DNA of 10,081 bases from an uncultured bacterium (GTDB taxonomy: Bacteria; CALINM01), in the NCBI GenBank assembly GCA_938045315.1, contig CALINM010000062.1, positions 1 to 10,081 on the forward strand, given 5' to 3'. Made by a program: the position numbers and the translations under genes. Of this stretch, positions 2,102-6,032 are shown in pieces. The first letter of the stretch is position 1; every line of letters starts with the position of its first letter. Below the pieces are notes generated by a model. It did no database searches, had not been told where the DNA came from, and worked only from the letters and a program-made list of their open reading frames with translations.

Positions 2102-4219
2102 TTACATACATACCCTATTTCTTCCAGTTTGCTTTGCACTATAAAGAGCTCTATCTGCCCGCTCTATAAAATCTTCTTTGGAGGTCATATAAGAAAAAAA
2201 TCCAGTTATACCAATGCTTACTGTAATATTAATATATCCTGGCTCATCATCTATTATAAAAGCATGTTCTTCAACCCTCTTTCTTATTCTTTCTGCAGCA
2301 ATAAAAGCCCTGTCTGCTGGTGATTCTGGCATTAAAATTATAAACTCTTCACCTCCATATCTTGCTGCAACATCGCTTTTCCTTATCGAAGTTTGTATAA
2401 TTTCTCCAAGCTGCTTTAATATAGAATCACCTGACTGGTGACCATAGGTATCATTTATCTTCTTAAAGTGATCTATGTCTATCATACATAATGAGGATTC
2501 TCTACCATATCTTTGACATCTTGCGAACTCACTTTCTAACTTAGTTTCAAAATACCTTCTATTGAATAATTTAGTTAAAGGATCCTTAAAAGATAATTCC
2601 TCTGTTATCTCATAACGCTTCGCATTTGCTAATGATACTCCTAATTGTATCATACAGGTCTCAATAGCAGACACTACGTTAGGGCTAAATATATCTTTTA
2701 ATTCACTAAATAGGATAAAATATCCATAAATACTTCCTTGATATAGCACTGGAAATAGGGAAATTGTATGCACGTCAATTAATTTTTTAGCTTCAATAGA
2801 TAATTTTTCTTCCTCTAACTCTAAACGATATGGCACATGGTGTTTTGATACAAATTGAATTACCCCTTTTTTAATTAAACTGTCAATAATAATCTTCACA
2901 TCATCTTCATTAGAAATCGATGAAATAATACCATTAAAATTCAAATTACCATTCTCATTGGATAAAAACAAATAACCATCAATTCCAAGCACTGTAACAA
3001 GTTCATCCCCAGCCGTTTTAATTATCTCATAAACATAAAGTGACTTAGATACAGCAGAAGTGAAAGAATATAAAAGTAATAATTCCTTTGTCCTTTCTTC
3101 TATTTTGCTTTCTAAATTTAAATATAGACTTTTCAGCTTACTTGACATCTCATTAAAATTATTAGCTAATTCCTCTATCTCATCATTTGTCTTTACTTTT
3201 ATTTTTTCATTGAAATTACCTTCAGCTATAAAAGAAGTTAGCTCTTTAAGTTTTACTATTGGCCCTGCAATATCTTCACTAACCTTCTTACTTAACATTA
3301 GAACAAGTAAAAAAAGAATTAAAGATAAAATTACAAAAAGTTTAATTGGCCTGTAAGTACTTGAAAATACTTCTCTTTCACTTTGAGCAACTGATAAAAT
3401 CCAGTTAAATTTATCAATATAAAACGAAGTAAATAAGTATTTCCCGTTTCTTTTATCTCTAAAAGTACCATGCACATAAACACCTTTGTTTTTTAGAACC
3501 TCTCTAATCTGTTTTTCAATACCTGAATACTCATTTATAATATTAGCATGCTTAATAACTAAACCATAATTTGCATGAGCAATAATATCCATATTACCAT
3601 CTGTTATGAAAGAGAATCCTGTTTCACCAAAGGTAGTATTTGATATCAAATTCTGAATATCTAGAAGCCATAATTTACTCACTAAGATGCTATTTATTGT
3701 TCCATCAAACTTAAAAACTGGGATAGCAATTATCATGTATGGCTTTGTATTATCGTAAAAAAGTAAAACTTTTGAATAAAATGTTTTTCCCCGTATTGCC
3801 TCTTTAAAATACTCTTCCTGTGATACATCTAACAATTCATTACCAGTCTCCCTTTTAATTTTGGAAGCATAAATCATGACTTTACCATTTTTATCTACTG
3901 CTGAAACTTCGAATACCGATGGATTGTGTTTAAGTATCTTCCAGAGATAAAATCTAAATCTCTCATTTATACCTTCTTCAAGAACTCCTTTTGAGTGGCT
4001 GCTCAACTCCATCAACTTCTCTATTAAAGCTAATTTATTGTTTATCTCATTAACAAGATATTTAAGTTGCTCTTTCTGATGGTTATAAGCATTCCTTTGA
4101 GCCTCTAAATAACTTGTTACTGCCTGAAATATGGTTAGAACCAATAAAGCAGAGTAACTTATCAAAAGTATTGGATAGAAAAGTTTTTTTGATATTTTAT
4201 TACGTGCAATCTTTTTCAT
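2102..4219 (-). CDS. Membrane diguanylate cyclase: dCache - HAMP - GAF - GGDEF
   Basis: The 705-residue protein should make cyclic di-GMP from two GTP in response to an extracytoplasmic signal. Domains in order: membrane helix at about 13-33; periplasmic double-Cache sensor at about 35-290 (EEYFKEAIRGK near 135-145, FNWILSVAQ near 271-279); second membrane helix at about 293-310; HAMP at about 311-365; a short coiled coil (365-385); a GAF-like domain at about 387-535; and GGDEF at about 544-703. The GGDEF domain has DPLTKLFNRRYF (546-557), DIDHFKKINDTYGH (581-594) and an intact active-site GGEEF (622-626). An RxxD product-inhibition site (R613-D616) sits five residues upstream, so the enzyme is probably active and feedback-inhibited. 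No EAL or HD-GYP domain. The ATG overlaps the upstream lipoprotein stop by one base (TAATG), with a weak AAGG Shine-Dalgarno at 4230-4227. It is the last gene of its operon, and no terminator is seen before tldD. Confidence 0.93.
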   Translation of the reverse strand: MKKIARNKISKKLFYPILLISYSALLVLTIFQAVTSYLEAQRNAYNHQKEQLKYLVNEINNKLALIEKLMELSSHSKGVLEEGINERFRFYLWKILKHNPSVFEVSAVDKNGKVMIYASKIKRETGNELLDVSQEEYFKEAIRGKTFYSKVLLFYDNTKPYMIIAIPVFKFDGTINSILVSKLWLLDIQNLISNTTFGETGFSFITDGNMDIIAHANYGLVIKHANIINEYSGIEKQIREVLKNKGVYVHGTFRDKRNGKYLFTSFYIDKFNWILSVAQSEREVFSSTYRPIKLFVILSLILFLLVLMLSKKVSEDIAGPIVKLKELTSFIAEGNFNEKIKVKTNDEIEELANNFNEMSSKLKSLYLNLESKIEERTKELLLLYSFTSAVSKSLYVYEIIKTAGDELVTVLGIDGYLFLSNENGNLNFNGIISSISNEDDVKIIIDSLIKKGVIQFVSKHHVPYRLELEEEKLSIEAKKLIDVHTISLFPVLYQGSIYGYFILFSELKDIFSPNVVSAIETCMIQLGVSLANAKRYEITEELSFKDPLTKLFNRRYFETKLESEFARCQRYGRESSLCMIDIDHFKKINDTYGHQSGDSILKQLGEIIQTSIRKSDVAARYGGEEFIILMPESPADRAFIAAERIRKRVEEHAFIIDDEPGYINITVSIGITGFFSYMTSKEDFIERADRALYSAKQTGRNRVCM

Positions 4220-5199
4220 TAAATAACCTTGTCTGCAAGGTATAGAATCTCATTAGGAATAGTATAACCCGCTCCTTTTGCCCAGCTATTATTGATAATT
4301 AAGCTTATCTTTTCAGGAACAAAAATTGGCAAATTTTCAGGTGTTCCACCGCTTAGAGTATGTTCTATCATTAAGAATGAATATTTTCCTACTTCTCCAA
4401 GATCGACACCATAACTAATCGTAGCATGTTTATCTACAACAAACTTTTCTTCATGTAAACATGTGGGTATTTTTCTTTCCTTTGCAAAAGCTATAATATC
4501 ATCAACTACTGCTATAACTACGGGATCGGGTATAATAAAAATTCCATCAGCCCCTTTTAATTTAATATCCTTTAACCTTGTTCTTAACTCATCAGTTGTT
4601 GTGACGCTAATTTTTTTAACTTTTATTTTTAATTCTTCTGATAAATTCTCTACATCCTGAACTGTCAACGTTGAATAAATATTTTGACTATTGAAGAAAG
4701 TTAATATTGTTCTCATTTTAGGAAAAGCCTTTATAAAATATTCCCACCTTTTTTCCGTAAGCTTCCTACTTAAATCGGTAACACCTGTAATTCCTTTCTT
4801 TGGCGACTTAAGGTTTTCTGCCAATCCAACTCCCACTGGGTCACCAACGGCAGCAAAAATTATTGGTTTATTTTTAATCATTTCATAGGCAGCAATAGTA
4901 GCTGGTGTTGTAATGGTATAAAATAGATCAATATCAAGACCCTGTAATATTTTTACAGCTGATTTAAATTCTTCATAATTAGTGGGAAAATCTTTTACGA
5001 TAAACTCTATTCTATCTTTGTAAATACTTTTATCTACCTCTGCCTTAAGCCCTTCTATAACCTTCTCGTAACCAGATTTAGGCATTATAATCCCAATTCT
5101 ATATTTTCTCTCAACTTTTTCTATGCCACATCCAATAAAAAACAAAGAAATAATTAAAAAATAAAGAAAGATAGAAAAAAAACCTTTTATTCTGGCCAC
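4219..5199 (-). CDS. ABC_sub_bind-family solute-binding lipoprotein
   Basis: This 326-residue protein belongs to the periplasmic binding proteins of the ABC_sub_bind type (Pfam PF04392, the family of TrpX). Visible hallmarks are YRIGIIMP after the signal (33-40), the family signature GDPVGVGLAENL followed by GITGVTDL in mid-protein, and the C-terminal SGGTPENLPIFVPEK with INNSWAKGAGYTIP. A lipoprotein signal is present: basic start, hydrophobic core at about 7-20 and lipobox FIGC with Cys24; the -3 position is Phe rather than the usual Leu. Gly at +2 would allow outer-membrane sorting under E. coli rules. The start is a GTG, anchored by an in-frame TGA two codons upstream (5205-5203) and by the signal peptide. 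It overlaps the hydrolase gene by 13 bases and the cyclase gene by one. No permease or ATPase gene adjoins it, so it more likely serves as a ligand sensor for the cyclase than as part of an importer. The ligand is unknown. Confidence 0.88.
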   Translation of the reverse strand: MARIKGFFSIFLYFLIISLFFIGCGIEKVERKYRIGIIMPKSGYEKVIEGLKAEVDKSIYKDRIEFIVKDFPTNYEEFKSAVKILQGLDIDLFYTITTPATIAAYEMIKNKPIIFAAVGDPVGVGLAENLKSPKKGITGVTDLSRKLTEKRWEYFIKAFPKMRTILTFFNSQNIYSTLTVQDVENLSEELKIKVKKISVTTTDELRTRLKDIKLKGADGIFIIPDPVVIAVVDDIIAFAKERKIPTCLHEEKFVVDKHATISYGVDLGEVGKYSFLMIEHTLSGGTPENLPIFVPEKISLIINNSWAKGAGYTIPNEILYLADKVI

Positions 5200-6032
5200 T
5201 TTTCAACCACTCTACCTTTTTCATCAAATTTAGCTGCATGTAAGAAGGGATCATGATAGAAAGTAATCCATGCATTATTTTTTAACACAAAATCTTCCCA
5301 AAACTCTTTTTGTTTTATAGATTCGAGGGGATAATTATCGTATGCCATAACCCACAGGGGATTATAGTGGGAATGCATAGGCATAAGATCACCAAAATGA
5401 ACTGCCATATGACCATAAGATTCAAGAATAATTATTTGATGCCCCCTGTTATGCCCACCTGTCCATACTACCTTAATTCCTTCAATGATTTCACAATCAC
5501 CATCTACTAAAAGGAGATTATTCGATTCCTTTAACTTTTCATAATTAATATTCCAAAAGGTATTGATAGATCTTCTGTTGGGATTAAGTACATCCTCCCA
5601 TTCTTTTTTCTGAATAATACACTTAGCATTGGGAAAAGTTAACTCCAATTCTTTATTTTCATTTAACATTATAATTCCACCGGAGTGATCAAAATCAAAA
5701 TGAGTTAAAATTACATATGATATATCATTTCTTGATAATCCAAGCATCTTAAGTTCCTCTAACAATGCCCAGTCTTTATTTACACGAAACATTTCTTTTT
5801 GTTTTTGAGTAAGTTTGTTACCCAAACCAGCCTCAATCATTACATATACATCTTTCTTTTTCACTAATATAGGATAAGCAACAAGAGGGATATAATTATT
5901 GTCATTAATAGGATATTTTTTTGACCATAGTACCTTGGGTACAACACCAAACATAGCACCACCATCTAATTCAAATTCACCACCATTTAACCAGAAAAGC
6001 TCATTATCACCTAATTTAAAAGGACCTCTCAT
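5187..6032 (-). CDS. Metallo-beta-lactamase-fold hydrolase, lactonase-like
   Basis: The 281-residue protein has the layout of metallo-beta-lactamase-fold hydrolases close to the AHL-lactonase branch. It starts with the DGGAMFGVVPK motif (23-33) typical of that branch. The metal site segment is THFDFDHSGG (110-119), so the usual HxHxDH reads HxDxDH, with Asp113 in place of the second His. Other likely metal ligands are His194 or His198 (TGGHNRGH), Asp215 (HFGD) and His260 (FYHD). There is no signal peptide, so it should act in the cytoplasm. A lactone or ester substrate is plausible from the family, but the substrate is unknown and I do not call it a quorum-quenching enzyme. The start has a clear Shine-Dalgarno, AAAGGTG (6043-6037), and the gene leads the minus-strand operon, overlapping the binding-lipoprotein gene by 13 bases. 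This suggests it handles the same small molecule or one related to it. Confidence 0.88.
   Translation of the reverse strand: MRGPFKLGDNELFWLNGGEFELDGGAMFGVVPKVLWSKKYPINDNNYIPLVAYPILVKKKDVYVMIEAGLGNKLTQKQKEMFRVNKDWALLEELKMLGLSRNDISYVILTHFDFDHSGGIIMLNENKELELTFPNAKCIIQKKEWEDVLNPNRRSINTFWNINYEKLKESNNLLLVDGDCEIIEGIKVVWTGGHNRGHQIIILESYGHMAVHFGDLMPMHSHYNPLWVMAYDNYPLESIKQKEFWEDFVLKNNAWITFYHDPFLHAAKFDEKGRVVEKWPE

Follow-up and report, generated by a model that had tools for sequence, protein, structure and literature searches.

What does a solute-binding lipoprotein do when the gene coupled to it encodes not a transporter but a diguanylate cyclase? The window, by which we mean the whole stretch of 10,081 nucleotides analysed here, carries on its minus strand three genes tightly coupled by overlaps, in the order MBL-fold hydrolase (5187-6032), PF04392 (ABC_sub_bind) solute-binding lipoprotein (4219-5199; 326 aa, GTG start) and transmembrane diguanylate cyclase (2102-4219; 705 aa). 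The latter two lie where the first-pass annotation had placed them, and the stop of the lipoprotein gene overlaps the start of the cyclase gene as TAATG just as it had read (the junction is GTT ATT TAA TG, and a sister genome of the same genus has ATGA there); the operon's first gene, the hydrolase, was absent from that description and shares 13 bp with the start of the lipoprotein gene. The observation that neither permease nor ATPase adjoins the lipoprotein also stands, with no ABC genes in the 10-kb contig or in the 14 kb around the sister locus.

The assignment of the lipoprotein to the ABC_sub_bind family proves secure: Pfam matches it to PF04392 with an E value of 1.9e-39 and 136.1 bits against a gathering cut-off of 25.9, and direct reading of the N terminus reveals a signal peptide (5131-5199, minus strand; hydrophobic segment aa 1-30) with the lipobox FFIGC and a predicted lipidated Cys24. 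Its relatives in the PDB are 6hni, 3lkv and 3lft, solved members of PF04392 that bind Tyr, Phe and Trp (PMC6816091). The TrpX equivalog model NF041285 scores it at 113.2 bits, below the cut-off of 390, and AlphaFold monomers of the lipoprotein and the cyclase, each built from a two-sequence alignment, are poor (pLDDT 51 and 34). In E. coli a Gly after the lipidated Cys sorts lipoproteins to the outer membrane, a rule that may not be this host's. The lipid anchor would favour proximity to the inner membrane; yet the linker is short, and Cys24 is followed by Gly, pointing to the outer one if E. coli rules apply.

The cyclase is laid out as a membrane receptor, with two transmembrane segments located by hydropathy (aa 12-36, 4112-4186; aa 287-315, 3275-3361) on either side of a periplasmic dCache_1 domain (aa 41-277, 3389-4099; Pfam 72.6 bits, cut-off 45), followed by a HAMP domain (aa 317-363, 3131-3271; 36.5 bits) and a GGDEF catalytic domain (aa 545-702, 2114-2587; 171 bits), all on the minus strand and with no EAL domain in the Pfam scan. 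The dCache-HAMP-GAF-GGDEF architecture proposed at first pass therefore holds for its dCache, HAMP and GGDEF parts, whereas the GAF is weak: the possible GAF-like domain (aa 390-535, 2615-3052, minus strand) drew no Pfam match in the window protein even at E<=10, and what there is comes from the sister cyclase only, as a GAF_2 match with an E value of 0.009 and 16.6 bits, below the cut-off of 28.6; an hhalign profile comparison of the presumed GAF region with a clear GAF was also negative. The motifs expected of a working diguanylate cyclase are all present, namely the active-site GGEEF (aa 622-626, 2342-2356), the metal/substrate motif DIDHFKKINDTYGH and the inhibitory RKSD (aa 613-616, 2372-2383), which stands five residues upstream of GGEEF, the spacing required of an I-site, so that the earlier description of GGEEF and RxxD as intact is borne out.

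How far does this arrangement extend? Another genome of the genus (G001; contig JAOABK010000008.1, from a MAG under the name Proteobacteria bacterium SKW176) has the three genes in unchanged order, with identities of 70, 52 and 66%. A contig scan with a two-sequence alignment of the solute-binding protein (SBP) recovered only this sister genome, a five-sequence alignment being too divergent for the purpose, and the SBP-cyclase pair was not found in the family's other genus. The exact operon is thus a genus-level feature, so far seen in these two genomes.

The underlying principle reaches considerably further. As the first-pass annotation had suggested, we surveyed SBP genes adjoining receptor genes, collecting 73 SBP loci, almost all PF04392, from diverse genomes without regard to their neighbours and reading the neighbours afterwards, with HAMP, GGDEF, kinase or chemoreceptor genes counted as receptors. 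ABC genes accompany 20 of these SBPs (two of them LivJ-type by-catch), an adjacent same-strand receptor accompanies 19, and 34 have neither, so that being an orphan is not in itself evidence. The receptor lies downstream of the SBP in every one of the 19 receptor-linked loci, often with a 4-bp overlap, and these span 14 genome families; among more distant open reading frames of the same loci receptors make up 9 of 385 (2.3%), which places SBP-receptor adjacency at about 10 times background (binomial p ~5e-15 counting one neighbour and ~6e-10 counting two, approximate values because the loci are related). Conserved adjacency, on which the first-pass annotation had staked its proposal, is thus seen both in the order kept by the sister genome and in its recurrence across families. 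By Pfam, the receptor outputs comprise GGDEF, GGDEF-HD (L133), class III cyclase (L116), kinase (L043, L138, L145-L147, L115, L034, L047 and L077) and chemoreceptor (L143, L144 and L153), with one more GGDEF output at L079, outside the 19 receptor-linked loci. Two further arrangements were noted in passing: five tandem PF04392 SBP copies upstream of the dCache-HAMP-class III cyclase of L116 (6961-13709), and PF04392 SBPs that adjoin a TonB-dependent receptor without ABC genes (L129, L136 and L044).

The Cache domain itself points to the same association. The window Cache shares 26% identity with that of the SBP-paired kinase at L043 (E 2e-28 in a BLAST comparison including HAMP), and the Cache of the L116 cyclase is the best match outside the genus of a profile built from this genus alone; the SBPs of both loci fall in the window protein's part of the SBP tree, in which the window protein groups with its sister and a kinase-linked SBP (support 98/81) and this group is joined next (88/81) by a clade in which both of those SBPs lie. 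SBP and Cache hence travel together while the output changes, to a kinase in the former and a class III cyclase in the latter. A search with the Cache alone found 26 loci in 18 families besides its four seeds, among which were L043 and L116, so that its independence from SBP-paired receptors is incomplete; an orphan SBP stands directly upstream in 8 of the 18 families, belonging to SBP_bac_5 in six, to an NMT1-like family in one and to Bmp in one, and the wider loci that were read contained no ABC genes. The loci L212, L213, L214, L217 and L218, from several unrelated families, place an orphan SBP_bac_5 gene before a dCache kinase and a response regulator, of sigma-54 type in several and without ABC genes, and L215 (1783-6633) has three tandem binding-protein-like genes upstream of a dCache kinase, the last of them confirmed as NMT1-like.

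Genomic context and evolution together suggest that the lipoprotein and the cyclase probably form a two-gene ligand-to-c-di-GMP receptor, in which docking of the lipoprotein on the Cache domain would set the output. The best-surviving alternative, which we nevertheless judge unlikely, is that the Cache senses a ligand of its own and the lipoprotein is only co-expressed with it, serving perhaps as a scavenger in some unlinked role: dCache domains usually bind ligands directly, and the 34 of 73 SBPs with neither receptor nor transporter beside them are in keeping with such independence, but a self-sufficient Cache would account poorly for a tenfold excess of SBP-receptor adjacency in which the SBP always comes first, or for related Cache domains whose partner SBPs come from four Pfam families.

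The third gene of the operon raises a different possibility. The hydrolase matches Lactamase_B in Pfam and is a relative of the YtnP-like lactonases, with 320.7 bits over its full length to the YtnP quorum-quenching lactonase model NF047919, under the cut-off of 425, and with the motif HFDFDH instead of the usual HxHxDH; its family is present in 91 of the 386 genomes searched, and the orthologue in the sister genus is solitary, beside other genes. That solitary orthologue makes it less plausible that the hydrolase is a constant component of the sensor, and the association of hydrolase and pair is not a general one. An operon dedicated to a single compound, in which the hydrolase would degrade or process a lactone-like molecule sensed by the lipoprotein-cyclase pair, would fit the translational coupling of the three genes in both genomes and the closeness of the enzyme to YtnP-type lactonases, yet we regard it as rather improbable in view of how widespread the hydrolase family is, the solitary orthologue in the sister genus, the enzyme's score below the curated cut-off, its departure from HxHxDH and its lack of a signal peptide, which makes a cytoplasmic enzyme likely.

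Whether the lipoprotein could still be an importer subunit is best judged from its ligand pocket. TrpX contacts its ligand through T108, A127, T129, D152, N233 and Q273 (PMC9382623). The corresponding signature T-A-T-D-N-Y is kept by 16 of the 18 genuinely transporter-linked SBPs, by none of the 19 receptor-linked ones and by 2 of 29 with neither partner. The window lipoprotein departs from the aromatic-amino-acid pocket T-A-T-D-N-Q/Y, reading T-A-G-D-P-L (T98, A117, G119, D142, P226 and L267), and its sister reads T-A-E-D-S-L; pairwise HMMER alignment agrees with these positions, the columns being less sure in the most distant proteins. Since the two orthologous lipoproteins differ from each other, with G or E at the T129 position and P or S at N233, the ligand may differ between them or be absent. 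In the SBP tree the transporter SBPs form one supported clade (97/94) with the window protein outside it, and a search of the family's three genomes for a TrpX-type permease, whose presence elsewhere the first-pass annotation had singled out as damaging to its proposal, returned none beyond weak LivH-like matches (E>=4e-7); the genome that holds the window is 92% complete, so that a permease could lie in the gap. The least probable explanation is accordingly that the lipoprotein takes part in import together with a distant ABC permease, its link to the cyclase being incidental. In favour of this, members of PF04392 often work with transporters, T98, A117 and D142 are kept and the genome is incomplete; but it runs counter to the permease search, the loss of the T, N and Y pocket positions, the position outside the transporter clade and the low TrpX equivalog score. 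Conserved coupling, recurrent SBP-receptor adjacency, the lost transporter signature and the lack of a cognate permease lend good support to the view that the lipoprotein serves sensing and not transport. Separately, two PF04392 SBPs with the full aromatic-amino-acid pocket and without ABC genes (L065, 1523-4753, and L118, 6652-9888) stand directly after a membrane H+-pyrophosphatase gene.

How might the two-gene receptor work? We infer that the exported, lipid-anchored lipoprotein would capture a small molecule outside the cytoplasm in its interlobe cleft and then dock on the dCache domain of the co-transcribed cyclase; its binding state would then be relayed through the second transmembrane helix and the HAMP domain to set GGDEF activity, in whichever direction that control may run, and RKSD would presumably add a brake through product inhibition. 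A candidate docking surface is offered by a conserved stretch of the Cache (aa 70-107, 3899-4012, minus strand), which is 97% identical between the two orthologues and includes a run of 32 identical residues, against 56% identity in the rest of the domain. Its expected place in a dCache fold is towards the end away from the membrane, which would suit a docking surface, as judged from two sequences and general knowledge of the fold.

The closest functional parallel is the one already cited at first pass, in which the SBP NspS controls the c-di-GMP enzyme MbaA encoded beside it, in Vibrio cholerae and also in Sinorhizobium meliloti (PMC8967002, PMC9993111). In both cases an SBP gene without a transporter of its own is coupled to the gene of a transmembrane c-di-GMP enzyme, whereas NspS is a polyamine-binding, PotD-type protein and MbaA combines GGDEF with EAL, in contrast to the PF04392 lipoprotein and the EAL-free dCache-HAMP-GGDEF cyclase found here; the window pair are hence not NspS-MbaA orthologues proper. 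The transport proteins TrpX, CD0873 and VC_1101 share Pfam family and fold with the lipoprotein, but the window protein has neither the accompanying ABC permease and ATPase genes nor the aromatic pocket that mark transporter-linked members. In LuxP-LuxQ and other SBP-coupled sensor kinases, too, a periplasmic binding protein acts on the periplasmic domain of a membrane receptor, there with kinase output and other SBP families. Further comparison is offered by L043 (dCache-HAMP-GAF-kinase) and L116, which share the window's Cache family and have other outputs, and by L133 (HAMP-GGDEF-HD) and L079 (GGDEF), whose input domain differs from that of the window cyclase; in all four a PF04392 SBP lies directly upstream of the receptor or cyclase.

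The bolder claim that such a pair would represent a separate class of sensor is not supported by this comparison: NspS-MbaA set the principle, and PF04392-GGDEF is one output variant of widespread SBP-coupled receptors. The principle of SBP-receptor coupling has been reviewed, and the coupling is regarded as widespread and counts 13 SBP families to date (PMC9602780); in a review of c-di-GMP sensing, periplasmic-binding domains figure chiefly as fusions (PMC8846402). A literature text search combining PF04392 or ABC_sub_bind with signalling found nothing relevant, the main SBP-receptor review lying outside the search. We propose, with the arguments for and against about evenly balanced, that several PF04392 branches, on losing the aromatic pocket, turned into dedicated sensory subunits, and that a dCache receptor family draws such orphan SBPs from four or more Pfam families. 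These SBPs would serve interchangeably as input modules for outputs of kinase, class III cyclase and diguanylate cyclase type, and the window pair would represent the last of these. Most receptors among c-di-GMP enzymes have no known ligand, and if these cyclases listen through a separate SBP, ligand screens on the receptor domain alone would miss the signal; the gene pair and the six-position pocket signature mark PF04392 proteins to be screened as sensors and not as importers.

The family that harbours the operon also encodes a second PF04392 SBP, at L040 (291-1166) in G000, L036 (6517-9488) in G001 and L038 (368-3339) in G002. The G000 copy sits at a contig end; in G001 and G002 the gene adjoins a chemoreceptor and two conserved envelope genes precede, which makes an SBP-coupled chemoreceptor likely.
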